Shown here in pieces: positions 45,844 through 64,000 of a DNA stretch of 64,000 nucleotides. Each line of letters starts with the position of its first letter. Position 1 is the first letter of the stretch. This DNA is from Ramlibacter agri (GTDB taxonomy: Bacteria > Pseudomonadota > Gammaproteobacteria > Burkholderiales > Burkholderiaceae_C): contig NZ_JABBFX010000003.1 in the NCBI RefSeq assembly GCF_012927085.1, forward strand, positions 620,001-684,000. Reading direction: 5' to 3'. The position numbers were made by a program, and so were the translations under genes. Under the pieces are notes generated by a model. The model did not search any database. It had not been told where the DNA came from and worked only from the letters and a program-made list of their open reading frames with translations.

Positions 45844-46428
45844 TCAACCGAGCGCGGCGATCACTTCCTCGGTCGTGCGCTGGCGGCCGATGCGCGGGAA
45901 GGTGTACTTCAGCGTGTTGGCGTGCGCCTCGGCCGAGGTCGCCGTCATCGCGTCCGTCGCGAACACCTGGTCGTAGCCGCGCTCGAAGGCGTCGCGTGCG
46001 GTCGACTCGACACCCACGTTGGTGGAGATGCCGGCCAGCACGATGGTCTTGATGCCGCGGCGGCGCAGCTGCAGGTCCAGGTCGGTACCGTAGAAGGCGC
46101 CCCACTGGCGCTTCATCACGCGCAGGTCGGACGGCTGCGCGTCCAGGTCCGCGACCACCTGCGACCAGTCGGCGGGACGATTCGCCGGGGCGGGCGCGGC
46201 GGTGTCCAGCTTGGGAGCCAGCGCGTCCTTGCCGTCGGCGGAGCTGCCGACCGTGACCAGCACCACCGGCGCCTGCGCGGCGCGGAAGGCCTGGGCCAGC
46301 TTCTTCGCGTGGGCGACGACCTGGCTGCTGGGGTTGGGTTCGGTCTTCATCGCGACGATGCCGTTCTGCAGGTCGATGAGGACGAGGGCGGTGGTCTTGG
46401 GGTCCAGCTTCAGTTCAGGGGTGCTCAT
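45844..46428 (-). CDS. Isochorismatase-fold hydrolase lacking the nucleophilic Cys
   Basis: 194 residues. ALVLIDLQNGIV has the catalytic Asp and MKRQWGAFYGTDLD the Lys region of cysteine hydrolases. At the nucleophile position the sequence is GISTNVGVESTARDAF: Gly stands where nicotinamidase-like enzymes have Cys (TNVCVESTARDA). EntB-type isochorismatases also lack that Cys, so activity is not excluded, but amidase chemistry is unlikely. Last gene of the seven-gene leftward operon, 36 bp after a Bug gene. Confidence 0.82.
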   Translation of the reverse strand: MSTPELKLDPKTTALVLIDLQNGIVAMKTEPNPSSQVVAHAKKLAQAFRAAQAPVVLVTVGSSADGKDALAPKLDTAAPAPANRPADWSQVVADLDAQPSDLRVMKRQWGAFYGTDLDLQLRRRGIKTIVLAGISTNVGVESTARDAFERGYDQVFATDAMTATSAEAHANTLKYTFPRIGRQRTTEEVIAALG

Positions 46429-46464
46429 GGTTCTCTACTTCAGGGGGAAAAAATCGGGATGGCA

Positions 46465-47442
46465 TCACTCGAGCTTGATGCCGCTTTGCTTGACGAAGGC
46501 CGTCCACTTCGCATTCTCCTTCTGCATCAGGGCGGCGAAGTCCTCGGGCGTCTTGCTCGTGCTGGGGTCGGCGCCCCAGGTCTTCCATTGCTCGCGCACT
46601 TCGGGCGCCTGCATCACGGTGCTGACTTCCTGGTGCAGGCGCGCCAGCACGGGCGCGGGCGTGCCGGCCGGTGCGACGACGCCGTACCAGGGGTTCACTT
46701 CGTAGCCAGGCAGCCCGCCTTCGGCGACGGCAGGAATCTGCGGCGCGGCGGCCGTGCGCTGCAGGCTCGTGACGGCGAGCGGCCGCATCTTGCCGGTGGT
46801 GGTGAGCGGCAGCGTCGTGGGCAGGCCGCCGAAAGCCAGCTGCACGCGCCCGGCCGAGACGTCGACCAATGCTTCGGTGATGCCGCGGTAAGGCACGTGC
46901 AGCATCTCGACGCCGGCCGTGTGCGCGAACAGCGCGGCGGCCAGGTGCGTCAGGCTGCCGTTGCCGGAACTGCCGTAGGAGAGCTTGCCGGGGTTCGCCT
47001 TGGCGTAGGCGATGAGTTCCGGCACGCTCTTCACCGGCAGGCTGCCGCTGACCACCAGCAGCAGCGGGAAGCTGCCGACGATGGTGACCGGCGCGAAATC
47101 CTTCAGGTTGTCCGCCGGCGTGCGGCCGCCGAAGCTGGTCGGCACGTACATCGACGAGGCGTTCACGAGCAGCGTGTAGCCGTCGGCCGGCGCGGTGGCC
47201 ACGGCCTGCGCGCCGATGGTGAGGCCCGCGCCCGGCTTGTTCTCGATGACGAAGGGCTGGCCGGTGGACTGCTGCAGCTTCACGCTGAGGTAGCGCGCCA
47301 GCGTGCTCGCCGGGCCGCCGGGGCTGTAGGGCACGACGAAGCGCACGGGATGGTCCGGGTACTGCGCGCGGGCGAGCAGGGGCAGGGCGGACAGCGCGGG
47401 CGCGGCGGCGGCCGCGAGCAGGGATCTGCGCGAGAACTGCAT
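46465..47442 (-). CDS. Bug family solute-binding protein, Tat-like signal
   Basis: 325 residues. Signal QFSRRSLLAAAAAPALSALPLLARA, then YPDHPVRFVVPYSPGGPAS, ATAPADGYTLLV, and VPYRGITEALVDVSAGRVQ. PGGPAST has no Asp at the place where many Bug proteins have one. It follows another Bug gene by 5 bp in the leftward operon; the pair are not near-identical, so they probably bind different ligands. Confidence 0.9.
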   Translation of the reverse strand: MQFSRRSLLAAAAAPALSALPLLARAQYPDHPVRFVVPYSPGGPASTLARYLSVKLQQSTGQPFVIENKPGAGLTIGAQAVATAPADGYTLLVNASSMYVPTSFGGRTPADNLKDFAPVTIVGSFPLLLVVSGSLPVKSVPELIAYAKANPGKLSYGSSGNGSLTHLAAALFAHTAGVEMLHVPYRGITEALVDVSAGRVQLAFGGLPTTLPLTTTGKMRPLAVTSLQRTAAAPQIPAVAEGGLPGYEVNPWYGVVAPAGTPAPVLARLHQEVSTVMQAPEVREQWKTWGADPSTSKTPEDFAALMQKENAKWTAFVKQSGIKLE

Positions 47443-47447
47443 GGGGT

Positions 47448-48404
47448 TCACTCCGACTCGATGTGGGCTTCCTTCACCACCTTGCCCCAGCGGGCAAGTT
47501 CGGCGGCGAGGAAGGCGTTGTAGCTTTCGGGCGTGCCGGCCATGGGCTCCACGCCACCGGCCAGCAACTGGTCCTTCAAGTCCGTCTGCGTCAGCACGCG
47601 GGTCAGCGCCGCGTGCAGCTTGTCGACGACGGGCCGCGGCGTCTTCGCCGGTGCCAGCAGTGCGTACCAGTTGCCGGCGGTGAGCGCTGGCAGGCCTTGC
47701 TCCGCCGCAGTCGGCACGTCGGGCAGCAGCGGGTTGCGCTTCTCGCTGGTGATGGCGATCGCGCGCAGCTTGCCGTCCTTCACGCGCGGGTAGAGCACCG
47801 GCAGGTCGATCGCCATCGCGTCGACCATGCCGGCCAGCAGCTCCGTCATGCCTTGCGCGACCGCCTTGTAGGGGATGTAGCGCACCTCGGCGCCGGAACT
47901 GCGCTTGAACAGCTCGAACACCACGCGGGTCGAGCCGCCGGTGCCGACGGTGGCGAAGGTCAGGCTGTCCGGCTTGGCCCTGGATGCGGCAACCAGTTCG
48001 GGCAGCGTCTTCGCCGGCACGTCCGGCTTCACGACGAACAGGATCGGCGTGGTCGCGATGGTGGAGATGCCGACGAAGCTGCTGGTCGCGTTGTAGGGCA
48101 GCTTGGGATAGGTCAGGCTGTTCAGCACCAGCGGCGTGAGGCCGGCGAGCAGCAGCGTGTAGCCGTCGGGCGCCGCCTTCGCGACGTAGTCGCTGCCGAT
48201 GATGCCGTTGGCGCCGGCCTTGTTCTCCACGATCACCGGCTGGCCCAGCGCTTCGGTCAGCCTGGGCTGCAGCTGGCGCGCGAGGATGTCCCAGGCGCCG
48301 CCGGGCGCGTAGCCGACCACCAGGTGGATCGGCTTCGAAGGATAGTCCTGGGCGTGCGCGGCGCCCAGGACCGTGGCAAGCAGCAGTGCTGCCCTCAACT
48401 TCAT
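47448..48404 (-). CDS. Bug family solute-binding protein
   Basis: 318 residues with a short signal (KLRAALLLATVLGAAHA), then [32 protein letters not shown] and IPYKAVAQGMTELLAGMVD. The ATG overlaps the stop of the CoxG-like gene by 4 bp. The VVGY/GNWYALLAPAKTPRPVVDKLH pattern closely resembles the Bug protein at 60018-60995 in the facing operon, suggesting duplication within the island. Confidence 0.9.
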   Translation of the reverse strand: MKLRAALLLATVLGAAHAQDYPSKPIHLVVGYAPGGAWDILARQLQPRLTEALGQPVIVENKAGANGIIGSDYVAKAAPDGYTLLLAGLTPLVLNSLTYPKLPYNATSSFVGISTIATTPILFVVKPDVPAKTLPELVAASRAKPDSLTFATVGTGGSTRVVFELFKRSSGAEVRYIPYKAVAQGMTELLAGMVDAMAIDLPVLYPRVKDGKLRAIAITSEKRNPLLPDVPTAAEQGLPALTAGNWYALLAPAKTPRPVVDKLHAALTRVLTQTDLKDQLLAGGVEPMAGTPESYNAFLAAELARWGKVVKEAHIESE

Positions 48405-48982
48405 GCCTGTCTCCTTTTGGTTCTCGTGAAGAAGCCCTTGATGACCAGCCAGAGCAGCTGTCCGGCGGACAGGGCGGCCGGGGCGGGATCGGATGGCACG
48501 ACGGCGGCCGCTGCGGGGACAACTTCAGGCGCTGCACTGCTGAATTGCTCGGCAAGCTTCTTCGCGAACATCTCCATCAATGCCTGCGTCACGGCGACGC
48601 CACCCGTGCGTGCGAAGTCGGCCAGCACGCCACCGAGTTCGGCGTCGGACACCAGCGTGACGCGGCTGCCGCCCGCAGCATCAGGCGCAACCGCGTACTG
48701 CACGTGCACTTCGGCCGGTGCGGCCATGCGCATGTCCGCCGCGCCGCGCACGTCCAGCGTGCCGCGCCGCGCCGGCAGGTCGACGGCGTTGCGGATCTTG
48801 CCCTTGAAGCGGATCTTCTTGGGCCCGAAAGCCACGACCATGGAGCCGAGCCAGTTGCCTTCGGCGTCGCGGCCGTCGACGCTGGCACCCGGCATGCAGG
48901 GCACCATGCGTTCGACGTCGGCAAAGGCGGCCAATACATCCGCGGCCGCGCCGGGGACGGTGAATTCGCCTTCGAAACGCAT
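48401..48982 (-). CDS. CoxG/SRPBCC family protein with C-terminal hydrophobic tail
   Basis: 193 residues. The SRPBCC (START-like) fold is indicated by MRFEGEFTVPGAAADVLAAF, MVPCMPGASVDG and GKIRFKGKIRN-like strands. The tail SAGQLLWLVIKGFFTRTKRR resembles the membrane-binding end of CoxG, which in carboxydotrophs recruits CO dehydrogenase to the membrane. No molybdenum hydroxylase genes are present, so here it may instead bind a ligand or tether one of the operon's enzymes. It follows the ThDP-enzyme gene by 2 bp. Confidence 0.8.
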   Translation of the reverse strand: MRFEGEFTVPGAAADVLAAFADVERMVPCMPGASVDGRDAEGNWLGSMVVAFGPKKIRFKGKIRNAVDLPARRGTLDVRGAADMRMAAPAEVHVQYAVAPDAAGGSRVTLVSDAELGGVLADFARTGGVAVTQALMEMFAKKLAEQFSSAAPEVVPAAAAVVPSDPAPAALSAGQLLWLVIKGFFTRTKRRQA

Positions 48983-48984
48983 GA

Positions 48985-50664
48985 TCAGCGCTCCGCCGCC
49001 AGCGGCCGCAGCAGCGGTGCCTGGTTGGGCACGCCGAAATGCAGCTTGGAGTAGGGGTCGCTCACCGTGGTGGGGGAGACCTGTGCATCGACGATGAACA
49101 GGCCGCCCTTCTTCAGCCCCTGCTGGATGGCCGTGCCGACTTCGCCGACGGAGGTCGCGCGCGCGCCGTCGCCGCCGAAGGCGCGCGCGAGCGCCACGAA
49201 GTCGGCCTGCTCCCATTGGGCGTGGCTGGGGTCGAAGCCCTTCGCTTTCAGTTTGTGCACTTCGGCGCCGAAGCCGTTGTCGTTCCAGACCACGACGACC
49301 ATGGACAGCTTGAAGCGCTGGATGGTGAACAGCTCCTGCAGGTTCATCAGCATGGCGCCGTCGCCTTCGATCACCACCTGCGGCCGGCCGGGATTCGCCT
49401 TCGCGATGCCGATCGCCAGCGGGATCGTCTGGCCGATGGCGCCGAACTGGTAGGAGAAACGCAGCTCCGCGCCCTCCGGCAGCGGCATGTACATGGCCGG
49501 GAAGGCCCAGAAGTGGCAGTTGCCACAGGTCACCAGGCTGTTGCGGGGCAGGGCGGCGCCGATGGCGTGCGCCAGCTGGCGCGGGTCGATGCCGTCGCTG
49601 GCCCTGGCGAATTCGTGCGGGGGCGCAGCGAGGATGGCGCGCGTGTCCTTGTCGCGAAAACCGGTCCTCGCCACCTTGCGTTCACGCAGGCGCTGCACGA
49701 GCAGGGCCACCGTCTTCTTCGCGTCGCCATGGACGTACAGGCCGGGGAAGGGCCCGATCTCCGCCTGCAGCGGATGGCTGTCGATGCGCGCCACCTCCGC
49801 TATGGGGAACAACATTCCGCCCTCGGAGGTGTAGTAGCCCAGCTCGGCGCCCACGCCCAGCACGAAGTCGGCGTCGCCCAGCAGGCGCTCGGTGGGTTCG
49901 CTGGAAAAGGCGCCGCTGATGCCGACGTCGTACTCCTCGCCGCTGAAGAAGCCCTTGGCCTGCAGCGAAGTGGCCAGCAACGCGCCGAGCTGCTCGCCCA
50001 GGGCCAGGATCTCCGGCTTCGCCTGCGCCTTCATCGCGCCGATACCGGCGACGATCACGGGCCATTCGGCGGCTTCGAGCTTCTCGATCAGCGTGTTCAT
50101 CACGTCATCGGACGGCACGCCGGCTGGCAGCGGTAAATACTCAGTGGAGGGGCGGTAGTTGAAGTCCCAATCGAAGGCGCGCTCCTGCAGCGCGACGTCG
50201 ATGTTCAGGACGACCGGCGTGCGCTGCACGCGCGCGATGTAGAAAGCCTCGGCCATTTCCGCCGCCAGGTTCTCCGGCGTCGTCACGTCCACGAGCCTGG
50301 CGCCGCAGGCTTCCACGAAGGGACGCGGATCCAGCCGCTGCGTGGCGTAGCGCGCGCCGCGGCGGGTCTGGCCGATGAACAGCACCAGGGCCGAGCGGTT
50401 GCGCACCGCAATGGTCAGCGAGGTCGCCACCTGCGTGAGCCCGGGCCCGTGCGTGACGGTGGCCACGCCGACCCTGCCGGTCGCGCGGTGGTAGCCATCC
50501 GCCATGGCCAGCGCCGCCTGCTCGTGGCCGGAAGACACGATGTCGACCTGGCCGTCCTTGACCAGCGTGGCCCAGAGCGACATGTTGCCGTCGCCCATCA
50601 GGCCGAACATCTGGTCGACGCCTTCGGCGATGAGGCCGGCGGCGACTGCTTCGTACACTTTCAT
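48985..50664 (-). CDS. Thiamine diphosphate-dependent enzyme (acetolactate synthase-like)
   Basis: 559 residues in the usual three domains: PYR domain with the cofactor-activating Glu in SSGHEQAALAMADGY (near residue 47), a central domain (about 190-320), and the PP domain with GDGAMLMNLQELFT...VVWNDN, the Mg/ThDP motif. The family includes acetolactate synthase, benzoylformate decarboxylase and 2-hydroxyacyl-CoA lyase; this protein lacks a clear subfamily signature. It probably decarboxylates or carboligates a 2-keto acid. The start overlaps the upstream dehydrogenase gene by 4 bp. Confidence 0.87.
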   Translation of the reverse strand: MKVYEAVAAGLIAEGVDQMFGLMGDGNMSLWATLVKDGQVDIVSSGHEQAALAMADGYHRATGRVGVATVTHGPGLTQVATSLTIAVRNRSALVLFIGQTRRGARYATQRLDPRPFVEACGARLVDVTTPENLAAEMAEAFYIARVQRTPVVLNIDVALQERAFDWDFNYRPSTEYLPLPAGVPSDDVMNTLIEKLEAAEWPVIVAGIGAMKAQAKPEILALGEQLGALLATSLQAKGFFSGEEYDVGISGAFSSEPTERLLGDADFVLGVGAELGYYTSEGGMLFPIAEVARIDSHPLQAEIGPFPGLYVHGDAKKTVALLVQRLRERKVARTGFRDKDTRAILAAPPHEFARASDGIDPRQLAHAIGAALPRNSLVTCGNCHFWAFPAMYMPLPEGAELRFSYQFGAIGQTIPLAIGIAKANPGRPQVVIEGDGAMLMNLQELFTIQRFKLSMVVVVWNDNGFGAEVHKLKAKGFDPSHAQWEQADFVALARAFGGDGARATSVGEVGTAIQQGLKKGGLFIVDAQVSPTTVSDPYSKLHFGVPNQAPLLRPLAAER

Positions 50665-51641
50665 GGCTTTGTCTCGGGAATGGTTGTTGGTTCGACCACG
50701 CGGATGGGGGTGCCGCAGAGCCAGGCCTCCAGGCATTCCACGGTGGCGGCATAGAAGGCACGCAGCGACTCCTCCACCGTGTAGCCGAGGTGCGGTGTGA
50801 GGATGGCGTTGTCGAGGCGGCGGAACGGGTGATCGGCCGGCAGCGGCTCGTGCTCGAACACGTCGAGGCCGGCACCCGCGATCAGGCGGTTTTGCAAGGC
50901 GTGCAGCAGCGCCGCTTCGTCCACGAGGCCGGCGCGCGCCGTGTTCACCAGGCAGGCGCCGGGCTTCATCAGCGCCAGCTCGCGGGCCGCGATGGTGTGG
51001 CGGCTGCGCTCGCCCAGCACCAGGTGCAGGCTCACGTAGTCGCTGCGCGCGAGCAGTTCGTCCTTGGCGGCCCAGGTCGCACCGGCGGCGGCTGCTTCTT
51101 CGGGCGTGAGGCGCGAGCTCCAGGCCAGCACCTCCATGCCGAAGGCGCGGGCGATGGGCACCATGCAGCGGCCGATGCGTCCCAGCCCGAGCAGGCCCAG
51201 GGTCTTGCCGCGCAGCACGCTGCCGGCGTGCAGCTGCCACGCGCCTTGCTTCATGCCCGCGGCAGATTGCGGAATCTTGCGTGCGAGCGACAGGATCAGG
51301 CCCCAGGCCAGCTCCGGCGTCGCATGCAGGCCCTCGCCCTTGTTGGGAGCGCGGGTGACGAGGATGCCGCGCTGGGCGGCGGCCGCCAGGTCCAGCGTGC
51401 GGTGCTCGAAGCCGGTGACCACGATCAGCTTCAGGCGCGGCAGGCGGTCGATGAGGCTCGCCGGCATGGCCATGCGTTCGCGCAGGTGGCAGACGGCGTC
51501 GAAATCGGCCAGCTCGCGCACGGCTTCTTCCTCGCCCAGGTGGCGGTCGAAGACCGTGACTTCCGCTTGCTGCTGCACGCGCGACCAGTCCGCCAGGCGC
51601 TGCGACAGCTGCAGGTAGTCGTCGAGAACGGCTATGCGCAT
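50661..51641 (-). CDS. D-2-hydroxyacid dehydrogenase family protein
   Basis: 326 residues. GLLGLGRIGRCMVPIARAFG is the NAD fold; VNTARAGLVDEAALLHAL supplies Arg, LDVFEHEPLP the Glu and TPHLGY the His of the catalytic triad. It overlaps the aconitase-family gene by 10 bp. In this operon it could interconvert a 2-hydroxy acid and the 2-keto acid used by the neighbouring ThDP enzyme. Confidence 0.87.
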   Translation of the reverse strand: MRIAVLDDYLQLSQRLADWSRVQQQAEVTVFDRHLGEEEAVRELADFDAVCHLRERMAMPASLIDRLPRLKLIVVTGFEHRTLDLAAAAQRGILVTRAPNKGEGLHATPELAWGLILSLARKIPQSAAGMKQGAWQLHAGSVLRGKTLGLLGLGRIGRCMVPIARAFGMEVLAWSSRLTPEEAAAAGATWAAKDELLARSDYVSLHLVLGERSRHTIAARELALMKPGACLVNTARAGLVDEAALLHALQNRLIAGAGLDVFEHEPLPADHPFRRLDNAILTPHLGYTVEESLRAFYAATVECLEAWLCGTPIRVVEPTTIPETKP

Positions 51642-54331
51642 GCGGGGGCCTTCTGCAGCAGGTCTTGCAGCACGCTTTGGGGCAACCCGCCGGCGGCTAT
51701 CAGCGCGCGTTCGGCGGCGGTGCGCGTTTCGGCCTGCACCTCGAACGCGACGGTGCGGCCGTCGGCGCGCTGCGCCTGCACGCGGATGGGTGTGCCTTGC
51801 AGCACGCCTTCGCGCACGCCCTCGAAGGCGAACAGCTCCGAGCCGTCCAGCCCGAGCTGGCGCCAGCCTTCGCCCTCCTGGAAGCGCAGCGGCAGCACGC
51901 CCATGCCAATGAGGTTGGCGCGATGGATGCGCTCGTAGGATTCGGCGATGACGGCCTTCACGCCCAGCAGCGCGGAGCCTTTGGCGGCCCAGTCGCGGCT
52001 GCTGCCGGTGCCGTATTCCTTGCCGCCCAGCACGATGGTGGCCGTGCCGGCGCGGGTGTAGTCCTGCGCGGCGTCGTAGATGGTCGTGAGCTGCCTGTCC
52101 GGGAAATGCAGCGTCCAGCCGCCTTCGCGCTCGGGCACCAGCGCGTTGCGGATGCGCACGTTGGCGAAGGTGCCGCGCACCATCACCTCGAAGTTGCCGC
52201 GGCGGCCGACGTAGGTGTTGAAGTCCTTTTGCGCGACGCCGGCAGCCAGCAGGTACTGCCCGGACGGGATGTCGGCGGGGATCTCGCCGCTGGGCGAGAT
52301 GTGGTCGGTGGTCAGTGAATCGCCGAAGGCGGCGAGCACGCGCGTTGCGCGCAGTGCGCCTGCCAGCTGGGTGATGCCATCGCCTTCGCCTGGCGTGCCG
52401 GCGAAGAAGGGCGGCTCGCGCAGGTATTGCGATTCCGGGTCCCAGGGATAGAGCGTGCCGGTGGCGGCGCTGCGGCACCAATCGGGGTCGACGAACTCGC
52501 TTTGCTGCGCTTGCGGCTGGTCGAAGCCGGACAGCTCGCCGGCGCGCTCGACCAGCGCCTGCAGTTCTGCCGCATCCGGCAGCAGCTCGCGCCAGAACAC
52601 GTCGCGGCCCTCGGCGTCCTTCCCGATCGGATCCTGCTCGAGGTTGATGCCGATGCGGCCGGCGAGCGCATAGCCCACCACGAAGGGCGGCGCGCCGATG
52701 TAGTTGGCCCGCACGAGCTTGTGGATGCGCCCCGTGAAGTTGCGGTTGCCGGACAGGACTGCGGTGGCGACCAGTTGCCGCTGCTCGATCTCCTGCGCGA
52801 TTTCGGGCGGCAGCGGACCGGACTTGCCGGCGCAGGTGGTGCAGCCGAAGCCGATCAGCTCGAAACCGAGTTGCGCGAGCGGCGCGCGCAGGCCCGCAGC
52901 TTCCAGGTAACGCACGACTGCTGGTGAGCCGGGAGCGAGCGAGGTCTTCACCCAGGACGGGACCTTCATTCCGCGGGCGACTGCATTGCGCGCCACCAGG
53001 CCCGCGGCGAACATCACCTGCGGGTTGGAGGTGTTGGTGCAGGACGTGATGGCGGCGATGACCACCGCGCCTTGCGGCAGCTTCGCCCCTGCGGGCACCG
53101 CGGCCTCCGTCGCGCCGAAGCCGCCCGATGGCATGGGCGCTTGCAGGCGCCGATCGAAGTCCGGGGCGATCGCATCCAGCGCCAAGCGGTCCTGCGGCCT
53201 TTGCGGCCCGGCCATGCTGGCCCGTGCCTCGCCGAGATCGATCTCGATCACGCGGCTGAACACCGGATCCGGGTCGCCGGCCTCGCGGAACAGGCCCACG
53301 CGGCGGCAGTAGGCCTCGACCAATTCCACCTGCGCCGGCGAGCGTCCGGTCGTGCGCAGGTAGTCCAGCGTGCGCGCATCGACGGCGAAGAAGCCGCAGG
53401 TCGCGCCGTACTCGGGCGCCATGTTCGCCAGCGTTGCGCGCTCGGGAACGCCCAGGGCGAGGGCCGCGGGGCCGAAGTATTCGACGGCGCAGTTGGCCAC
53501 CTTCTCGCGCCGCAGCCTTTCAGTCACGAGCAGCGCGATGTCGGTGGTCCACACCAGCGGGGCGGGCGTGCCGACCAGCTTCACGCCCACGACTTCGGGC
53601 AGCGGGAAGGTATAGGCATGTCCGAGCAGGGCAGCCTCCGCGTCGATGCCGCCCACGCCCCAGCCCAGCACGCCGATGCCGTTGATCATCGGCGTGTGCG
53701 AGTCGCCGCCGATCACGAAATCGGGGAAGGCCCAGTCCTGCTCGGTGGCGACGACAGTCGCGATGCGCTCGAGATTGACCTGGTGGATGATGCCGCTGCC
53801 CGGCGGAAACACGCGTAGCCCGCGAAAAGCCTGCTGCGCCCAGCCGATGAAGGCATAGCGCTCCGCGTTGCGTTCGAACTCGCGGCGCATGTTCAGCTTC
53901 ATCGCGTCGGCGCTGCCCCAGTTGTCCACCTGCAGCGAGTGGTCGACGACCAGGTCCACAGGTACGCGCGTGTCCACCGAGCGCGGGTCGCCGCCGGCCC
54001 GCGCGACGGCGGATCGCAGCGCCGCCAGGTCCTGCAGCACCGGCACGCCGCTGGAGTCCGGAAGGATCACGCGCGACACGTAAAGAGGCAGGTCCGCGCC
54101 CACGTTGTCCGCCGCGTGCAGCAGCAAGGCGATCTCCTCGTCGGCCACCGGCCGGCCCCGCACGCGGGAACGCAGCAGGTTTTCCAGCAGCACCCGCGTC
54201 ACGTACGGCATGCGCGCCAGTTCGCCGCCGGCCGCCGCCACGAAACGCGGCAGGTCGATGGCCAGCCAGGTGCGCCCACCCGCGGAGACGGCGGTGGAGG
54301 TGGGTTGGGGAAGGGCGCGAGAAGCTGGCAT
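51632..54331 (-). CDS. Aconitase-family hydratase, divergent AcnA-like paralogue
   Basis: 899 residues, standard AcnA length. The [4Fe-4S] cysteines are in SCTNTSNP and GCTTCAGKSG; GGDSHTPMINGIGVLGWGVGG has the active-site His, and GTGSSRDWAAKG is the C-terminal Ser-Arg substrate loop. Two motifs depart from the AcnA forms I know: GCTTCAGKSG for CIGNSG, and GNRNFTGRIH for NFEGR. It therefore may hydrate a substrate other than cis-aconitate. ATG 54331 is preferred; an in-frame ATG at 54376 would place the operator inside the gene. No ribosome-binding site is seen, so translation may be leaderless. First gene of the leftward operon. Confidence 0.88.
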   Translation of the reverse strand: MPASRALPQPTSTAVSAGGRTWLAIDLPRFVAAAGGELARMPYVTRVLLENLLRSRVRGRPVADEEIALLLHAADNVGADLPLYVSRVILPDSSGVPVLQDLAALRSAVARAGGDPRSVDTRVPVDLVVDHSLQVDNWGSADAMKLNMRREFERNAERYAFIGWAQQAFRGLRVFPPGSGIIHQVNLERIATVVATEQDWAFPDFVIGGDSHTPMINGIGVLGWGVGGIDAEAALLGHAYTFPLPEVVGVKLVGTPAPLVWTTDIALLVTERLRREKVANCAVEYFGPAALALGVPERATLANMAPEYGATCGFFAVDARTLDYLRTTGRSPAQVELVEAYCRRVGLFREAGDPDPVFSRVIEIDLGEARASMAGPQRPQDRLALDAIAPDFDRRLQAPMPSGGFGATEAAVPAGAKLPQGAVVIAAITSCTNTSNPQVMFAAGLVARNAVARGMKVPSWVKTSLAPGSPAVVRYLEAAGLRAPLAQLGFELIGFGCTTCAGKSGPLPPEIAQEIEQRQLVATAVLSGNRNFTGRIHKLVRANYIGAPPFVVGYALAGRIGINLEQDPIGKDAEGRDVFWRELLPDAAELQALVERAGELSGFDQPQAQQSEFVDPDWCRSAATGTLYPWDPESQYLREPPFFAGTPGEGDGITQLAGALRATRVLAAFGDSLTTDHISPSGEIPADIPSGQYLLAAGVAQKDFNTYVGRRGNFEVMVRGTFANVRIRNALVPEREGGWTLHFPDRQLTTIYDAAQDYTRAGTATIVLGGKEYGTGSSRDWAAKGSALLGVKAVIAESYERIHRANLIGMGVLPLRFQEGEGWRQLGLDGSELFAFEGVREGVLQGTPIRVQAQRADGRTVAFEVQAETRTAAERALIAAGGLPQSVLQDLLQKAPACA

Positions 54332-54337
54332 GCGGCT

Positions 54338-54353: not shown

Positions 54354-54423
54354 AGCGGCTGAAGAAAGTCCGGCATCGGCCTTTACCTTGGGAGCGGATG
54401 ATAGGAGCGCTGGAAAATTCGCG

Positions 54424-54458: not shown

Positions 54459-54465
54459 CCGCCGC

Positions 54466-56923: not shown

Positions 56924-58378
56924 ATGCAGCAACAGCAGTACGACGTGGTCGTGATCGGGTCCGGCATCGCCGGGCTGTCCGCGGCCGTCTCGGCGCAGGA
57001 GAACGGCGCCAGGGTGTGCGTCATCGAGCGCGCGCCGGCCGAGGAAGCCGGCGGCAACACCCGCCACACCGGCGCCTACATCCGCATGAAGTCCACCGAG
57101 GAACTGTCGGACGACTTCGAGGAGCACTTCGCCGCCAACGCCGGCGGCTACCTGGAGCCCAACCTCGTGTCCGAGGCGGCGCGCGACCCGGAGAACTGGC
57201 CGCCCCTGCTGAAGGCCCTGAGCTTCGTCGACCCGAACGTCGTGTCCACGCTGGCCGAGGAAGCCACGCCGACGCTCCATTGGCTGGAAGGCCACGGCGT
57301 GCAGTTCTTCAAGCTGGACGTGCCTTTCCCGACCTCGGCGCAGCCGCGCATCGTCCCCAGCGGCGGCGGCCTCGCGCTGGTGGAAGCGCTCACCAAGTCC
57401 TTCCAGGCGAAGGGCGGCACCTTCCTGTATGAGACCGCGGCCAGCAGCCTGCTGCAGGACGACGATGGCGCGGTCGTCGGCGTGAACGCCATCGCCCGCG
57501 GCAACAAGAAGCTGCAGGTGCGCGGGGCGGCCGTGGTCGTCGCCTGCGGCGGCTTTCAGGGCAACGCCGAGATGCTGACCCGCTACCTCGGCCCCAACTC
57601 GCTGAACCTGCGCACGATGTCGGTCGGCTGCCACTACAACAAGGGCGAAGGCATCCGCATGGCCCTGGACATCGGGGCCGCGCCCTGCGGTGACTTCGGC
57701 AGCTATCACGCCTCGCCGATGGACCCGCGCTCCAAGCGCGCCGGCCCGTCCATGTACATGTATCCCTACGGCATCCTGGTGAACAAGGAAGGCCGGCGCT
57801 TCGTCGACGAGGGCCCGGGCGAGGTCGACGAAACCTATGAGCGGGTCACGCGGCGCATCTACGCGCAGGCCGGTGGCTGGGCCTGGTGCGTGCTGGATGC
57901 GAAGTTCGCCGACGTGCCGAACCAGGCCGTCGCGGTGCGCACCGAGCACCCGGCCATCGAGGCGGACAGCATCGCCCAGCTCGCGAAGAAGATCGACGTG
58001 CCGGCCGACCAGCTGGAATGCACCTTGGCCGAATACAACGCGGCCTGCGTTGAAGGCAAGTTCGACCCGAAGGGCGTCGACGGCCTCGCCACCCGCGGCG
58101 TCTACCCGGCCAAGTCCAACTGGGCGCGCCCCGTCGACAAGGGCCCGTTCAAGGCCTATCCGATCATCTCGTCGATCGTGTTCACCTTCGGCGGCCTGAA
58201 GACCGACCCGGCGGCCCGCGTGCTGAACCTGCAGGGCGACGCCATCCCCGGCCTGTATGCGGCCGGCGAAGCGCAAGGCCTCTACTACGGCAACTACACG
58301 GGCGCGACCTCGGTGCTGAAGGGCGCGGTGTTCGGGCGCATCGCCGGTCGCGATGCCGCGGCCCTGGCGAAGCAATAA
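56924..58378 (+). CDS. FAD-dependent dehydrogenase, tricarballylate dehydrogenase (TcuA)-like
   Basis: 484 residues. VVVIGSGIAGLSAAVSAQENG binds FAD and ERAPAEEAGGNTRHTGAYIR resembles the GGNSR segment of TcuA. The body belongs to the fumarate reductase/3-ketosteroid dehydrogenase flavoprotein family: GGGLALVEAL, ACGGFQGNAEML, and the C-terminal IPGLYAAGEAQGLYYGNYTGATSVLKGAVFGRIAG. TcuA oxidises tricarballylate to cis-aconitate. No heme or iron-sulfur partner is encoded beside it. A GGAGA ribosome-binding site precedes ATG 56924. The assignment to TcuA is by pattern recall and context, and a different saturated acid is possible. Confidence 0.78.
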   Translation: MQQQQYDVVVIGSGIAGLSAAVSAQENGARVCVIERAPAEEAGGNTRHTGAYIRMKSTEELSDDFEEHFAANAGGYLEPNLVSEAARDPENWPPLLKALSFVDPNVVSTLAEEATPTLHWLEGHGVQFFKLDVPFPTSAQPRIVPSGGGLALVEALTKSFQAKGGTFLYETAASSLLQDDDGAVVGVNAIARGNKKLQVRGAAVVVACGGFQGNAEMLTRYLGPNSLNLRTMSVGCHYNKGEGIRMALDIGAAPCGDFGSYHASPMDPRSKRAGPSMYMYPYGILVNKEGRRFVDEGPGEVDETYERVTRRIYAQAGGWAWCVLDAKFADVPNQAVAVRTEHPAIEADSIAQLAKKIDVPADQLECTLAEYNAACVEGKFDPKGVDGLATRGVYPAKSNWARPVDKGPFKAYPIISSIVFTFGGLKTDPAARVLNLQGDAIPGLYAAGEAQGLYYGNYTGATSVLKGAVFGRIAGRDAAALAKQ

Positions 58379-58392: not shown

Positions 58393-59361
58393 ATGAAGTC
58401 CACCTTCCTGCGCACCTGCGCCGCCGCTCTCTTCGCCGTGGTTCCGCTGCTCGCCGCGGCCGACGACTTCCCCAGCAAGCCGATCAAGATGATCGTGCCC
58501 TTCTCCGCCGGCGGCTCCACGGACGTCATCGCCCGCCTGGTCGCCAAGGAGATGCAAGCCAAGCTGGGCCAGCCGGTTGTCGTCGAGAACAAGGACGGCG
58601 CCTCGGGCGCCATCGCCACCGACTTTGTGGCGAAGTCCGCGCCCGACGGCTACACCATCTGCTACTGCACCACGGGGTCCATCGCGATCCTGCCACTGAT
58701 CGATGCGAAGCTGAGCTACAAGCCGGACCGCGACCTCGTCGCGGTGACGCATGCGGTGGACCAGCCCTTCGGCGTCGTCGTGCGCAGCTCGCTGGGCGTC
58801 GACAACCTGAAGGACTTCGTCGCGCTGGCCAAGGCCAACCCCGGCAAGTTCAGCTTCGGCTCGCCCGGCACCGCCACGCCCAGCCACCTGACCGGCGAGA
58901 TGCTGAAGATGGCGACCGGCATGGACATCCGCCACATCCCCTATCGCGGCGACAACCCCGCGGTGGCCGACATGCTGGGCGGCCACATCGACGCCATGAT
59001 GCTGTCCGGCGTCAGCGTGGCGCCGCTGGTCGAAGGCGGCAAGGTGAAGGCGCTGGCCGTGACCAGCCTCAAGCGCCTCCCCTCACTGCCCAACGTGCCG
59101 ACGGTCGCGGAACTGGGCTACCCCGGCTTCCAGACCAACAACCTGCAGGCGCTGTTCGCTCCGGCGAAGACGCCCCCGGAGATCATCGCCAAGCTCAATG
59201 CGGCGGCTGTCGCCGCGCTGCATTCGCCGGAAGCCGCCGACAAGATCGCCAGCCAGGGCCTCATCATCGTCGCCGATTCGCCGGCCCATGCCGCGCAGAC
59301 GATGAAGGAGGAAGCCGAGCGCTGGGCGCCGGTGGTGCACAAGCTCGACCTGAAGCGCTGA
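58393..59361 (+). CDS. Bug family solute-binding protein
   Basis: 322 residues. Signal KSTFLRTCAAALFAVVPLLAAA, then FPSKPIKMIVPFSAGGSTDVI, KSAPDGYTICYCTTGS (two unusual Cys residues) and IPYRGDNPAVADMLGGHIDAM. A strong AAAGGAGGG ribosome-binding site lies between the flavoprotein stop and this ATG, suggesting high expression. Placed between the TcuA-like and flavin-reductase genes. Confidence 0.9.
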   Translation: MKSTFLRTCAAALFAVVPLLAAADDFPSKPIKMIVPFSAGGSTDVIARLVAKEMQAKLGQPVVVENKDGASGAIATDFVAKSAPDGYTICYCTTGSIAILPLIDAKLSYKPDRDLVAVTHAVDQPFGVVVRSSLGVDNLKDFVALAKANPGKFSFGSPGTATPSHLTGEMLKMATGMDIRHIPYRGDNPAVADMLGGHIDAMMLSGVSVAPLVEGGKVKALAVTSLKRLPSLPNVPTVAELGYPGFQTNNLQALFAPAKTPPEIIAKLNAAAVAALHSPEAADKIASQGLIIVADSPAHAAQTMKEEAERWAPVVHKLDLKR

Positions 59362-59363: not shown

Positions 59364-60005
59364 ATGGAGCCGCTGTCCATCCGGGCCGCGTCGCTCGACG
59401 CCGAGGGCTGCTACAAGCTGCTCAGTGGCGTGGTGGTGCCGCGCCCCATCGCCTGGATCAGCACGCAATCGGAAGAAGGCGTGGTGAACCTCGCGCCCTT
59501 CAGCTGCTACACCTACGTGTGCAGCAAGCCGCCGATGGTGGGCATCAACATCGGCCGGCGCGCCGGCCAGCGCAAGGACACCAGCCGCAACATCCACCAG
59601 CGCGGCGAGTTCGTGCTGAACATCGGCGACGCGACGATGATCGAGGCGATCCATCGCAGCGCCGACGAATACGGGCCCGAGGTGAGCGAGGTGGACCTGC
59701 TGGGGCTGGAGCTCGCGCCCAGCGAGAGCATCGCCACGCCGCGCCTGGCCATGGTGCCGGCCGCCATGGAATGCCGGCTGCACAGCGTGCAGGAATTCGG
59801 CGAGACCAACGCGGAGTTCATCGTCGGCGAAGTGCTGGTCTTCCACTTCCGCCCCGGCCTCTGCGTCAACGGCAAGGTCGACACCGCCACGCTCAACCCG
59901 CTGGCCCGCCTGGGCGGACCCAACTACGCCGGCCTGGGCCCGTCGATCACGATGGCCCCGGTGTCGCGCACCCCGCAGATGGTCGTCGCCAGGGATGGCG
60001 GCTGA
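59364..60005 (+). CDS. Flavin reductase family protein (FMN-binding split barrel)
   Basis: 213 residues. CYKLLSGVVVPRPIAWISTQ and GVVNLAPFSCYTYVCSKPPMVGI are the conserved FMN-site strands; KDTSRNIHQRGEFVLNI follows. Members reduce FMN with NAD(P)H, or act as electron partners of flavin-dependent enzymes. It might recycle electrons for a monooxygenase or serve an uncharacterised reductase step. It starts 2 bp after the Bug stop. Confidence 0.85.
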   Translation: MEPLSIRAASLDAEGCYKLLSGVVVPRPIAWISTQSEEGVVNLAPFSCYTYVCSKPPMVGINIGRRAGQRKDTSRNIHQRGEFVLNIGDATMIEAIHRSADEYGPEVSEVDLLGLELAPSESIATPRLAMVPAAMECRLHSVQEFGETNAEFIVGEVLVFHFRPGLCVNGKVDTATLNPLARLGGPNYAGLGPSITMAPVSRTPQMVVARDGG

Positions 60006-60017: not shown

Positions 60018-60995
60018 ATGGATCGCAGGACTTTCCACAAGGCCCTGGGCGGCTTCGCCCTGGGCGCCGCCGCGCCGCTGGCCTTCGCCCAGGACTATCC
60101 CGTCCGGCCGATCCGGCTGGTGGTGGGCTACCCGCCCGGCGGCGCCAACGACATCATCGCCCGCCTGATGGCGCAGCACCTCAGCGAGGAACTGGGGCAG
60201 CAGGTGGTGGTCGACAACCGTGCCGGCGCCAACGGCGTGATCGGCTCGGATGCCGTGGCCAAGGCCGCACCCGACGGCTACACCTTGCTGGCAGCGGGCA
60301 TGACGCCCATGGTGTTGAACCGCCTCACCTACAAGAAGCTGCCGTACAACGCGGCCAGCGACTTCGTCGGCATCAGCGAGGTGGCGAGCAGCCCCATGCT
60401 GTTCGCCGTGCGGCCTGACCTCAAGCTGCGCAGCCTCGACGACCTGGTCAAGCTGGCCAGGGACAAGCCGGGCAAGATCAACTTCGCCACCGTCGGCTCC
60501 GGCGGCTCGACCCGCGTGGTGTTCGAACTCCTGAAGCAGAGCACGGGCGTCGACCTGCGCTACGTGCCTTACAAGGGCGCCGGCGCGGCCATCACCGACA
60601 TCCTGGGCGGCATCGCGGACGGCATGGCCGTCGACTTCGCGGCGCTGTACCCCTTCGTCAAGGAAGGCAAGCTCACCGCCCTCGCGATCACCAGCGACAC
60701 GCGCAGCCCGCTGCTGCCGGACGTGCGCACTGTCGCGGAGCAGGGCCATCCGGAACTGACCTGCGGCAACTGGTATGCGCTGTCGGCGCCGGCGAAGACG
60801 CCGCAGCCCATCGTCGACAAGCTGCATGCCGCCGTCGCGAAGATGGTGCAGAGCCCCGAGATGAAGAAGCAGCTGCTGGCGCAGGGCTGCGAACCGAAGG
60901 CCAGCGCCTCGCCGCAGGCCTTCAACCAGTTCGCCGCCGCGGAACTCGCCCGCTGGGGCAAGGTTATCAAGACGGCCGGCATCGAGGCGGAATGA
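60018..60995 (+). CDS. Bug family solute-binding protein, Tat-like signal
   Basis: 325 residues. Signal DRRTFHKALGGFALGAAAPLAFA, then [40 protein letters not shown] and VPYKGAGAAITDILGGIAD. Its VVGY..GG, SGGSTRVVFELL and GNWYALSAPAKTPQPIVDKLH segments parallel those of the Bug protein at 47448-48404 in the leftward operon. Overlaps the next gene by 4 bp. Confidence 0.9.
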   Translation: MDRRTFHKALGGFALGAAAPLAFAQDYPVRPIRLVVGYPPGGANDIIARLMAQHLSEELGQQVVVDNRAGANGVIGSDAVAKAAPDGYTLLAAGMTPMVLNRLTYKKLPYNAASDFVGISEVASSPMLFAVRPDLKLRSLDDLVKLARDKPGKINFATVGSGGSTRVVFELLKQSTGVDLRYVPYKGAGAAITDILGGIADGMAVDFAALYPFVKEGKLTALAITSDTRSPLLPDVRTVAEQGHPELTCGNWYALSAPAKTPQPIVDKLHAAVAKMVQSPEMKKQLLAQGCEPKASASPQAFNQFAAAELARWGKVIKTAGIEAE

Positions 60996-61768
60996 GCATG
61001 AAGATCTGGCTCCAGAGCGGCACGCCGCTCGCGCAATCCCCCATCTACAAGCCCTACTACGACTCGCTGGTGAAGCACGCGAAGCGTGTGGCGCGTGCCG
61101 ACACCGTGGTGGAGTTCCCCGACCTGGGCAAGCAGTACCCGGGCGCCGCTCGCAGCCGTACGCACCTGCATTTCTTGGCGCACGAGACCATCAAGGCCGC
61201 GATCAAGGCGCAGGAAGAGGGCTACGACGTGTTCGTCACGCAGTGCCTGGACCTGGCATACGACGAGTTGCGGGAGATGGTGGACATCCCGGTCGTCTTC
61301 ATGACGCAGGCGACGCTGGCTTTCTACAGCCAGCTGGCGCCCAACTTCGCCTTCCTCGTGAACAGCGAGCGCCTGCTGCATTTCTTCAACGAGATGGCCG
61401 ACCGCTACAAGGTGGCCGACCGCATGGTGCCGGGCAGCTACGTCACCTTTGCGTTCACCGACTACGCGAACCTGTGGAACAGCCCGCAGCCCTTCATCGC
61501 GCAGTTCCGCGAAGTGGCGGAGCAACTGGCCGGCCGCGGCGCCACGGCCTTCATGCCGGCCGGCCTGTACCTGAGCCAGTGGCTGATCGACCAGGGCATC
61601 CGCGAAGTGAACGGCGCCATCGTCATGGACCCGCTGGCAGCGGCGATCAAGACCGCGGAAACGATGGTCGACCTGAAGCGCATCGGCGTGCAGCCTTGCC
61701 GTGCCGGCGCCTGGACGCCGCCGACGGCGGAAGTGCGCCAGTTGCTGGCCAAGGAATTCCAGGCGTAA
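60992..61768 (+). CDS. Asp/Glu/hydantoin racemase-fold protein (maleate isomerase-like family)
   Basis: 258 residues. KIWLQSGTPLAQSPIYKPYYDSL begins an Asp/Glu racemase fold; one Cys at VFVTQCLDLAYDELREM occupies the first catalytic position. In the second half, where a catalytic Cys is expected, I see GATAFMPAGLYLSQWL and no Cys nearby, so two-base racemisation is doubtful. A one-Cys isomerase or decarboxylase (as in arylmalonate decarboxylase relatives) is possible. An in-frame ATG two codons later (60998) is an alternative start. Confidence 0.7.
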   Translation: MSMKIWLQSGTPLAQSPIYKPYYDSLVKHAKRVARADTVVEFPDLGKQYPGAARSRTHLHFLAHETIKAAIKAQEEGYDVFVTQCLDLAYDELREMVDIPVVFMTQATLAFYSQLAPNFAFLVNSERLLHFFNEMADRYKVADRMVPGSYVTFAFTDYANLWNSPQPFIAQFREVAEQLAGRGATAFMPAGLYLSQWLIDQGIREVNGAIVMDPLAAAIKTAETMVDLKRIGVQPCRAGAWTPPTAEVRQLLAKEFQA

Positions 61769-61777: not shown

Positions 61778-62740
61778 ATGCGCTTCCTGCTCCAGCTCGC
61801 GGCGCTTGCATTGGGCGCCCTCGTTGCCAACGCTCCCGCGCGAGCGGAGGCCTATCCCGACAAGCCCATCCAGCTGATTGTGCCCTTCGCCGCCGGCGGC
61901 TCGGTGGACTTCATTGCCCGCCAGCTGGCGCTGCAACTGCAGAAGGACTTTCCCAAGGGCGTGGTGGTGGTCAACCGCGCGGGAGCGTCGGCCACCATCG
62001 GCACGCGCGCCATCGCCACCGCCGCGCCGGACGGCTACACCATCGGCCTGATCAACATCGCGCACGTGTCCAACCCGGCGCTGGGGCCGGTGCCCTACGA
62101 CCCCATCAAGGACTTCGCGCCCATCGCGTTGGCCACGCGCATCCCGTCCATGCTGATCGTGCACCAGTCCTTCCCGGCCAACACGGTGAAGGAACTGATA
62201 GACATGGCGAAGGCCAAGCCCGGCGCACTCAGCTACGGATCCGTGGGCCTGGGCACGTCGAACCACTTGCCGATGGAGCTGCTGCTGAACATGACGGGCG
62301 CGAAGATGCTGCACGTTCCCTACAGCAGCACCGGCGGGCTGAATGCCGACTTGCTGGGCGGCCAGGTGCCCATCGGCTTCACCACCGTGCCTACCGGCGT
62401 GGCGCGCATCAAGACCGGCAAGGTCAAGGCCCTGGGTGTCGCCAGCCCGAAGCGGCTGGCGGTGCTGCCCAACGTGCCGGCCATCGCGGAGACGGTTCCC
62501 GGCTTCGAGTTCGCGGATTGGAACGCCGTGGTGGCACCGGCGGGGACGCCCCCCGAGATCGTCGCGCGCCTGCACGAAGAGGTGATCAAGGCCATGCATG
62601 CGCCCGAGTTCCGCCAGCGCATGGACGAATTCGGCGCCGAGGTCGTCGGCAGCACGCCGCAGCAGCTGGGCGAGTTCCTGCACGCCGAACTGGCCAAGTG
62701 GGACCGCGTGATCCGCGAAGCCGGTATCACGAAGCATTGA
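61778..62740 (+). CDS. Bug family solute-binding protein
   Basis: 320 residues. Signal RFLLQLAALALGALVANAPARA, then YPDKPIQLIVPFAAGGSVDFI, ATAAPDGYTIGLINIAH and VPYSSTGGLNADLLGGQVPIG. AAGG replaces the more usual xPGG. AAGGAGACCGC precedes the ATG. Third Bug protein of the rightward operon. Confidence 0.9.
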   Translation: MRFLLQLAALALGALVANAPARAEAYPDKPIQLIVPFAAGGSVDFIARQLALQLQKDFPKGVVVVNRAGASATIGTRAIATAAPDGYTIGLINIAHVSNPALGPVPYDPIKDFAPIALATRIPSMLIVHQSFPANTVKELIDMAKAKPGALSYGSVGLGTSNHLPMELLLNMTGAKMLHVPYSSTGGLNADLLGGQVPIGFTTVPTGVARIKTGKVKALGVASPKRLAVLPNVPAIAETVPGFEFADWNAVVAPAGTPPEIVARLHEEVIKAMHAPEFRQRMDEFGAEVVGSTPQQLGEFLHAELAKWDRVIREAGITKH

Positions 62741-62753
62741 ACGGGAGGACGGA

Positions 62754-63620
62754 TTGTTCATCGTCGACGCGCAGGTCCACGTCTGGGCCGCCAACACGCC
62801 CGAACGGCCCTGGCCGGTCTACCCGGGCAACACCGAACCCAACAAGCCGCACTATCCCGAGCCGCTGACGCCGGACAAGCTGGTGACGTGGATGGACGCG
62901 AACGGCATCGCCCGCGTCTACCTCGTGCCGCCTTCGTGGGAAGGCGAACGCAACGACGTCGTTCTGGCCGGGGCGCAGAAGCATCCGGACCGCTTCCGTG
63001 CGATCGGCCGCCTCGATGTCGATGCGCCCGATGCACGCCAGCAGGTGGAGCGTTGGATGGAGCAGCCCGGCATGGCCGCCATGCAGCTGACCTTCCACAA
63101 GCCCTACTTCGTCGCGCTGCTGGAAGAGGGCCGGGCCGACTGGCTGTGGCCGATCGCCGAGCGCAAGGGAATCCCGATCAACGTTTATTTGCAGCAGCGG
63201 CACCTGCACCTGCTGGATCGCGTCGCAGAAAGGCATCCGGGCCTGCGCTTCCTCGTCAACCATTGCGCCATGACCGGGACGAAGAAGGACGCCGATGCCT
63301 TCGAGGAATTTCCCAAGCTGCTGGCGCTGGCGAAGCGGCCCAACGTGGCGGTCAAGGCGAGCTGCCTGCAGTTCTATGTGACGGAGCAGTACCCGTTCCC
63401 GTCGCTGGTGCCCTACGTGCGCCAGCTGTACGACGCCTTCGGGCCCAAGCGCATGTTCTGGGGCACGGACCTCACGCGCCTGCCCTGCACCTGGAGCCAG
63501 GCCCTGCGCTTCTTCCTGGAGGAGATCCCCTTCCTCAGCGCGCAGGACAAGGAATGGATCATGGGCCGCGCCATCACCGAGTGGCAAGGCTGGCCCGCCG
63601 TCGCGAAGGACAAGCCATGA
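62754..63620 (+). CDS. Amidohydrolase family 2 (PDC lactonase/ACMSD-like) metal-dependent hydrolase
   Basis: 288 residues from TTG 62754, with GGGAGG upstream. FIVDAQVHVWAANTP holds a QxH motif in place of the usual HxH or DxH at the first metal site; PINVYLQQRHLHLL and LRFLVNHCAM give the central residues and FWGTDLTRLPCTW the late Asp (GTDxT). TIM-barrel enzymes of this type hydrolyse lactones such as 2-pyrone-4,6-dicarboxylate or decarboxylate acids. It overlaps the next gene (ATGA). Confidence 0.83.
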   Translation: MFIVDAQVHVWAANTPERPWPVYPGNTEPNKPHYPEPLTPDKLVTWMDANGIARVYLVPPSWEGERNDVVLAGAQKHPDRFRAIGRLDVDAPDARQQVERWMEQPGMAAMQLTFHKPYFVALLEEGRADWLWPIAERKGIPINVYLQQRHLHLLDRVAERHPGLRFLVNHCAMTGTKKDADAFEEFPKLLALAKRPNVAVKASCLQFYVTEQYPFPSLVPYVRQLYDAFGPKRMFWGTDLTRLPCTWSQALRFFLEEIPFLSAQDKEWIMGRAITEWQGWPAVAKDKP

Positions 63621-64000
63621 CGCAAAAGCTGGTGCTGGCCGGTGACACCAACCTGGTCGGCGTGTTCGAGCCGGGCGTGCCTTTCGCGCGCCTCGCGGAA
63701 GAATTCCACGCCGCCGATTTCACTTTCGCCAACCTGGAGTGCTGCCTGTACGAGCCGCCGCGCGATGCCGGCGGCACGGCGACGCAGGACGGCTACTTCG
63801 CGCCGCCCGGCCCGGCCGGCGAGGCCTTGAAGCTCGCTGGCATCCAGGCCGTCGGCATCGGCAACAACGTCGTCTATGGCGACGACGCGATCCTTTCCAC
63901 CGTCGCCGGGCTCGATGCGCTGGGCATCCTGCATACCGGCGCGGGACGCAATGCGGCTGCCGCGCGCGCGCCGGTGATCCTCGAGCGCAATGGGCTGCGC
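63617..64000 (+). CDS. CapA-family metallophosphatase-like protein, N-terminal part (runs off the right edge)
   Basis: The 128 residues seen begin KLVLAGDTNLVGVF, like the GD metal motif of CapA/PGA-synthesis proteins, followed by ADFTFANLECCLYEPP, which corresponds to the NLE motif, and AVGIGNNVVYGDDAI, the GNNH-like segment. The family has a calcineurin-type fold; several members sit in catabolic clusters with amidohydrolases rather than in capsule operons, as here. The C terminus is outside the window. Confidence 0.72.
   Translation, partial: MTQKLVLAGDTNLVGVFEPGVPFARLAEEFHAADFTFANLECCLYEPPRDAGGTATQDGYFAPPGPAGEALKLAGIQAVGIGNNVVYGDDAILSTVAGLDALGILHTGAGRNAAAARAPVILERNGLR

Follow-up and report, generated by a model that had tools for sequence, protein, structure and literature searches.

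A divergent, GntR-associated gene island of Ramlibacter agri that probably degrades an unusual citrate-like acid

The stretch of Ramlibacter agri DNA considered here (64,000 nucleotides, bases 620001-684000 of contig C3 in a genome of 7.2 Mb; hereafter the window) carries at its right end a gene island built around an aconitase-family hydratase (Acn) and a lyase of the isocitrate lyase/phosphoenolpyruvate mutase (ICL/PEP-mutase) superfamily, referred to as ICL. Two divergent arms meet at 54332-54465, with seven genes running leftward and 11 rightward within the window. Inside the window, the spacing of neighboring genes within the arms ranges from small overlaps to 41 bases, so that each arm looks like a single operon. 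All 18 genes of a first-pass annotation, made from the sequence alone, are present with the families it had assigned to them (Pfam and NCBIfam scans), and its description of two operons diverging at a GntR gene is borne out by the gene coordinates and their packing. The left boundary is confirmed by a TctC gene that ends at 45804 on the opposite strand. The rightward arm extends about 4.7 kb beyond the end of the window, which brings the island to 22 genes, among them six encoding TctC-type receptors. The features are the following; gene starts were refined after the first frame list, and genes past the window end are given in window-style coordinates.

45844..46428, minus strand: isochorismatase-fold protein of the YecD type (Pfam PF00857; NCBIfam PRK11440, 241 bits, cut-off 195)
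46465..47442, minus strand: TctC-type solute receptor (Pfam PF03401 in the longer scanned frame; start refined)
47448..48404, minus strand: TctC-type solute receptor (Pfam PF03401)
48401..48982, minus strand: CoxG/SRPBCC-like protein (Pfam PF06240, 30.8 bits, cut-off 22.2)
48985..50664, minus strand: thiamine diphosphate (ThDP)-dependent enzyme, acetolactate-synthase-like (Pfam TPP N, M and C domains)
50661..51641, minus strand: D-2-hydroxyacid dehydrogenase (Pfam PF02826/PF00389)
51632..54331, minus strand: Acn, aconitase-family hydratase of the cassette clade (PF00330 and PF00694; TIGR01341)
54339..54352, no strand: operator-like site ATGTGTTGACAGTT, between the Acn and GntR genes
54425..54438, no strand: operator-like palindrome AAGTGTTGACACTT, between the Acn and GntR genes
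54466..55182, plus strand: GntR/FCD regulator (PF07729, PF00392)
55207..56112, plus strand: ICL, lyase of the ICL/PEP-mutase superfamily with a KRCGH motif and an R213-x-R215 insertion (PF13714/PF00463)
56115..56882, plus strand: SDR dehydrogenase (PF13561)
56924..58378, plus strand: flavin adenine dinucleotide (FAD)-dependent dehydrogenase of the FAD_binding_2 family, TcuA-like (PF00890)
58393..59361, plus strand: TctC-type solute receptor (named by its grouping with the other TctC proteins; 38% to a TctC protein of locus L013)
59364..60005, plus strand: flavin reductase domain protein (PF01613)
60018..60995, plus strand: TctC-type solute receptor (PF03401)
60992..61768, plus strand: Asp/Glu-racemase-fold protein (PF01177, 40.5 bits, cut-off 31)
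61778..62740, plus strand: TctC-type solute receptor (PF03401)
62754..63620, plus strand: Amidohydrolase_2 protein, lactonase-like (PF04909; weak NCBIfam fuconolactonase match, 38.7 bits, cut-off 400)
63617..64666, plus strand: CapA/PGA_cap protein (PF09587; the window ends at 64000)
64682-65509, rightward arm, past the window end: second racemase-fold protein
ending at 66470, rightward arm, past the window end: TctC protein
66493-67902, rightward arm, past the window end: MFS carrier
67921-68742, rightward arm, past the window end: second SDR

The scans of the island proteins reported neither a TctA nor a TctB family. Abutting the left edge of the island is a separate unit (42670-45804) composed of an enolase-superfamily protein, a 2-hydroxyacid dehydrogenase and a TctC receptor, and adjoined by another GntR gene.

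Relatives of the island were collected through the lyase. A scan of named genomes gave at least 80 loci, to which two plasmid loci were added, and among the matches listed, 13 loci with a lyase of at least 61% identity (L011-L019, L023, L048, L091 and L092) form the set of relatives used here. The comparison of gene neighborhoods proposed in the first-pass annotation shows that homologues do co-occur: a related Acn gene stands divergent to the lyase gene in 12 of the 13 loci (L016 being cut by a contig end), and in the exception, L048, the Acn match is only partial and lies on the strand of the lyase. A GntR match lies between Acn and ICL in eight of them (L011, L013-L016, L018, L091 and L092), farther on in L019, and about 13 kb away, with an operator-like site of its own, in the genomes of L012 and L017. 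Acn, GntR and ICL are the shared core of the cassette. Its lyase is found, own genome included, in 2 of 399 genomes of the same family at E 1e-100 and in 1 of 398 genomes of the phylum at E 1e-90, and this rarity in even genome samples makes the cassette patchy. A protein search with the lyase, in which 7999 candidates were scored, gave at least 4342 proteins at E 1e-60; several of the 120 listed come from Achromobacter species and from metagenome sources. Two observations concern the surroundings of the cassette in relatives: in Bordetella genomosp. 12 (L014:13548-18780), genes for PrpF, another aconitase and another GntR lie a few kb from it, and a Shinella plasmid carries a gene annotated hemC (hydroxymethylbilane synthase; L091:636-1568) at a distance of about 10 kb from the cassette Acn.

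Phylogenetically, the window Acn and ICL fall into distinct and largely congruent clades. The Acn tree has 27 rows, nine of 35 having been removed first (overlapping copies, the truncated L016 and near-identical AcnD-like rows), and the ICL tree has 55 (the 48 best of 94 minus one duplicate, plus chosen references). For Acn, the window groups with L023 (100/100), then within a set of eight (100/100) and one of 11 (99/98); the cassette clade of 11-12 rows (99/98 and 100/99) stands apart from E. coli AcnA and from the AcnD-like rows. For ICL, the window and L023 (100/98) sit within 12 rows (100/97) and then 15 rows (100/99), and E. coli PrpB is placed apart. Both trees give the pairs window and L023, L015 and L019, and L011 and L013, all starred, and both contain an Alcaligenaceae-Shinella set (88/94 for Acn, 99/93 for ICL); L018 is placed differently in the two, with weak support. 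The trees rule out that Acn and ICL are housekeeping duplicates. Several further ICL/PEP-mutase-family and aconitase matches are present on contigs C1-C3 of the same genome, including an aconitase at about C1:2440-2444 kb with GntR and TctC matches nearby; of the other aconitases of this genome, two are far off in the tree, and L002, on a long branch, lies just outside the cassette clade.

Acn passes the AcnA model TIGR01341 (1020.6, cut-off 945) and nevertheless lies outside the group of the E. coli housekeeping AcnA, a clustering with which would have counted against the first-pass scheme. Comparison of nine Acn rows of the clade with five other aconitases yields two separating columns, one of which is a glycine in place of a threonine beside the DSH motif. 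In ICL the catalytic set is intact. The lyase scores below the cut-off of the PrpB equivalog model (237.4 vs 354.4), and in a comparison bearing on dimethylmalate lyase, its PDB match to 3fa3 (150.6 bits) is below that to PrpB (172.9 bits). It retains, in an alignment to E. coli PrpB, residues D58, D85, D87, E115, K121, C123, H125, R158 and N210. The letters of these residues were checked on E. coli PrpB, and their roles are mostly those that we assume for this enzyme; N210 is taken to lie in the active site, and L234 to form part of the methyl pocket. Asp58 and Glu115 of PrpB are named in an excerpt of one report (PMC7609661). Around this set, E188 is replaced by D, L234 by S, and four residues are inserted after N210 (NMGFGIRSRPTTPL in the window). 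E188D and the R-x-R insertion each occur in 17 of 17 rows of the clade and in none of the six rows used for comparison, which are E. coli PrpB, two further PrpB-like rows and three lyases of the same genome, and the position of L234 is occupied by S in 15 and T in two of the 17. Since it is adjacent to N210, the R-x-R insertion should shape the substrate pocket.

A conserved operator-like palindrome, AAGTGTYRACACTT, is located between the Acn and GntR genes. A first count excluded three of 14 stretches and found TGTCAACA or its complement in all 11 intergenic regions. In eight regions chosen to lessen redundancy, this core word or its complement is present in all eight, vs at most four of eight for any word in 500 first-order shuffles. 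The 12-mer AGTGTYRACACT occurs just once in the genome of 7.2 Mb, at the palindrome 54425..54438 (reversed control, 0). A pattern search with WAGWGTYRACACTW gave matches in nine of 14 genomes or records, at 18 distinct places, 10 of them at the cassette and eight elsewhere. Four of the eight stand in front of GntR-MmgE/PrpD or TctC-FAD-MmgE/PrpD operons: Bordetella genomosp. 12 has two of them, and Parapusillimonas and CAII-53 have one each. The palindrome heads GntR-MmgE/PrpD operons in these three, and their TctC-FAD-MmgE/PrpD operons are headed by it as well, with two mismatches in Parapusillimonas and CAII-53; in L012 and L017, the site ahead of TctC-FAD-MmgE/PrpD has two mismatches. The FAD enzyme of these operator-bearing operons is of the fumarate-reductase type. 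The other places are found in Verticiella, ahead of an SDR with a TctC further on; in Antarctobacter, with an LLM oxidoreductase-SDR pair on one side and an ABC transporter on the other; in L168, close to a group of methyltransferase, NTF2-like and TctC genes; and in G1158 C201. The GntR protein itself scores 102 against the PhnR_burk model TIGR03338, below the cut-off of 271.5.

The reading preferred here, to which a probability of about 55% is given, is that the whole island forms a single catabolic unit, induced by its substrate and controlled by GntR, in which a substituted cis-aconitate would be hydrated by Acn and then cleaved by ICL. The TctC receptors and the MFS carrier would import an organic acid, which accessory enzymes (here the SDR, the TcuA-like flavoprotein and the hydrolase- and racemase-fold proteins) would convert to a substituted cis-aconitate-like alkene. 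The cassette aconitase would hydrate this alkene to a substituted isocitrate, and the ICL-family lyase would split the latter, by a retro-Claisen/aldol-type C-C scission, into a 2-oxo acid and a succinate-type acid. This 2-oxo acid would probably be processed further by the ThDP enzyme and the D-2-hydroxyacid dehydrogenase, which are encoded with the aconitase. GntR, presumably bound at the palindrome between the arms, would control both arms. Hydration followed by cleavage of an aconitate-like acid, as predicted from sequence, is the well-supported part of this scheme: the pairing of a hydratase with a lyase, already proposed in the first-pass annotation, has held, as the genes for both occur together in relatives, the two phylogenies are largely congruent, and none of the PrpB catalytic residues is lost from the lyase. 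The suggestion that the substrate is another or a substituted acid is also strengthened, since the altered lyase pocket and the companion genes of relatives described below point to it.

Several observations weigh against this reading. The eight regions with the core word are not fully independent, as L014 and L016 have ten 12-mers in common; five of the 14 genomes or records are without a WAGWGTYRACACTW match, and the reversed control matched two of the 14. The nearest relative, L023, is without a GntR match in the 20.9 kb fetched and without a strong palindrome between Acn and ICL. The position of the R-x-R insertion comes from an alignment and not from a structure, and just two columns mark the cassette Acn, so that plain cis-aconitate may be its substrate. 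Finally, the FAD subfamily, flavin reductase, CapA protein, ThDP enzyme and hydroxyacid dehydrogenase are outside the conserved cassette and may serve other substrates.

In relatives, further genes adjoin Acn. Downstream of it, nine of the 13 loci have a hydantoinase-like gene, eight an amidase-like gene whose product is of the isochorismatase fold, and five a CobW gene (at least 51%); in these counts, L016 and L019 are cut by contig ends. Three copies of each of the first two were read by eye: cyclic-amidohydrolase metal ligands are seen in the hydantoinase-like copies, and the Asp-Lys-Cys triad is seen in the amidase-like ones. Among solved structures, the best relative of the former is the L-hydantoinase 1gkr, and those of the latter are N-carbamoylsarcosine amidohydrolase followed by 4l07/4l08, which we take to be maleamate amidase. 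These genes suggest that in relatives a ring imide or amide may be removed before hydration and cleavage. On that basis, the window could be a variant of a route that starts from the ring imide or amide of a tricarboxylic acid and runs through ring opening, deamination, dehydrogenation, hydration and cleavage, an explanation that we regard as unlikely for the island itself. Neither gene was found in L018, L023 or L048, hydantoinase matches in the own genome are weak and partial (best E 1.8e-12, 30% identity), and the window protein of the isochorismatase fold (45844-46428), whose best PDB match is YecD 1j2r, carries the motif TNVGVEST, with a glycine at the position of the cysteine-amidase nucleophile. 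An amidase role for this protein is ruled out by the missing cysteine; the triad of YecD is given as Asp-Lys-Gly in an excerpt of PMC12553813. Because of these weak matches and the missing cysteine, the upstream chemistry of the window is considered to differ from that of its relatives.

Degradation of isonicotinate or citrazinate would need a ring-imide hydrolase, an amidase, a tricarballylate-type dehydrogenase and an aconitase. These families are present in the operons of relatives, whereas no pyridine hydroxylase was recognized among the scanned island proteins, the rest of the genome being outside that search. A wider proposal, tentative and rather improbable, is a pathway distributed patchily over Burkholderiales and alphaproteobacteria in which the cyclic imide or amide of a tricarboxylic acid would, in the relatives, undergo opening and deamination; dehydrogenation would follow, then hydration by a dedicated aconitase and splitting by a dedicated R-x-R lyase, under one GntR and palindrome, with the window variant fed through its SDR/FAD module; an imide from tetrapyrrole breakdown or a citrazinate-type ring may serve as example substrates.

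Tricarballylate utilization proceeds through TcuA, TcuB and TcuC, and the island resembles it through its TcuA-like flavoprotein and through receptors that belong to a tricarboxylate-transporter family. Under such a route, the flavoprotein would form cis-aconitate, the aconitase isocitrate, and the lyase glyoxylate and succinate. The flavoprotein passes one TcuA model (PRK08274, 383.8, cut-off 369) and fails the other (TIGR02485, 203.5, cut-off 372.55). Its scores against the KstD models (144.7 and 147.3) are below their cut-offs (788 and 789), and in the PDB, urocanate reductase is nearest (120.6 bits), ahead of a delta-4(5alpha) enzyme (91.5) and the delta-1 enzymes (75-77). A ketosteroid-type identity is ruled out by these scores, in which TcuA and the urocanate/fumarate reductases rank above the ketosteroid dehydrogenases, with the two TcuA models divided. 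In relatives, the operator is shared by FAD enzymes belonging to the same Pfam family, and the PrpB L234 of the presumed methyl pocket is a serine in the lyase, both of which would fit tricarballylate. However, the island differs in that it adds a hydratase and a lyase, and neither TcuB nor TcuC was recognized among its scanned proteins, no search having been aimed at TcuB. E188D and R-x-R suggest a different substrate, and dedicated copies for normal tricarboxylic-acid-cycle acids would be odd in a genome with further aconitase and ICL-family genes. A route from tricarballylate itself, after which the first-pass scheme was modeled, is considered quite unlikely.

Nor does the flavoprotein appear as the fixed first step it had been proposed to be. 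Its relatives were found in 10 of 399 genomes of an order sample, own genome included; of 17 matches outside that genome, 11 loci (54-65% identity) were read, with a racemase-fold protein nearby in seven, an SDR in one and neither in three, and with Acn or ICL in none of the 11 stretches read. A Variovorax plasmid encodes it at 60% beside SDR, isochorismatase-fold and racemase-fold proteins, and the operator-sharing flavoprotein of relatives has an identity of only 27% to that of the window. The window flavoprotein belongs to another recurrent module, outside the conserved cassette. On the plasmid of Variovorax PBL-E5 (L127:3437-17082), the FAD-SDR-isochorismatase-racemase module adjoins genes annotated argH, MmgE/PrpD and tcuA, and its isochorismatase-fold protein is likewise without the cysteine, as read by eye. 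The racemase-fold proteins at 60992-61768 and L009:4682-5509 are probably not racemases, since inspection by eye finds each of them without one or both of the cysteines that we assume to be catalytic in such enzymes. The ThDP enzyme, which scores below the cut-offs of all 25 NCBIfam models listed out of 53 and has BbmA as its best PDB match (137.8 bits), and the hydroxyacid dehydrogenase are outside the conserved core as well; the ThDP enzyme and CoxG recur together in L134. The recurrence of the FAD module without Acn or ICL in the stretches read, and that of ThDP-CoxG in L134, would be expected if cassette, FAD, ThDP and receptor modules were merely co-located and acted on unrelated substrates, but the genes are packed in two continuous operons around one operator region, and such a chance mosaic is judged distinctly improbable.

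The substrate-induced hydratase-lyase unit preferred here has its nearest known chemistries in the methylcitrate cycle and, as far as we are aware, the end of nicotinate fermentation. In the latter, dimethylmaleate hydratase is followed by dimethylmalate lyase, and the hydratase, DmdAB, has two subunits. The succession of an aconitase-superfamily hydratase and an ICL-superfamily lyase is common to both, and relatives of the island have a ring hydrolase of the amidohydrolase superfamily; in contrast, the island hydratase is a one-chain protein of the AcnA type, and no nicotinate gene was recognized in the island. The predicted chemistry of the island is of the methylcitrate type, as a variant of it. 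Like the methylcitrate cycle (PrpC, PrpD or AcnD/PrpF, and PrpB), it combines an aconitase-family hydratase with an ICL-family lyase that has the same catalytic residues, and MmgE/PrpD-family proteins accompany its relatives. Unlike it, the island enzymes form separate clades with a remodeled lyase pocket sequence, contig C3 is without a citrate synthase or MmgE/PrpD match (the six PF00285 and seven PF03972 matches of the genome are all on other contigs), and PrpF is absent among the scanned island proteins. A methylcitrate-cycle paralogue for propionate, to which the identical superfamilies and the PrpF with its AcnD-like neighboring aconitase in Bordetella genomosp. 12 might point, is largely refuted and very improbable, given the sub-threshold PrpB score and different clade of ICL, the off-contig matches just mentioned, and three scanned MmgE/PrpD proteins of relatives that fall far below the PrpD cut-offs.

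Elsewhere in the window, an open frame of about 2150 codons (20727-27182) has a coding-like third-position guanine-cytosine content.

Literature searches at the level of titles returned no paper title describing this cluster, and a description may exist in print. In current annotation the two enzymes are labeled aconitate hydratase AcnA and methylisocitrate-lyase-like protein, names that probably hide another substrate, in view of the separate, co-inherited clades, the operator-like site and the companion enzymes. The cassette probably degrades an unusual citrate-like acid, which would be a degradable acid absent from present pathway maps, and the palindrome would provide a direct handle on the whole regulon and hence on the substrate.

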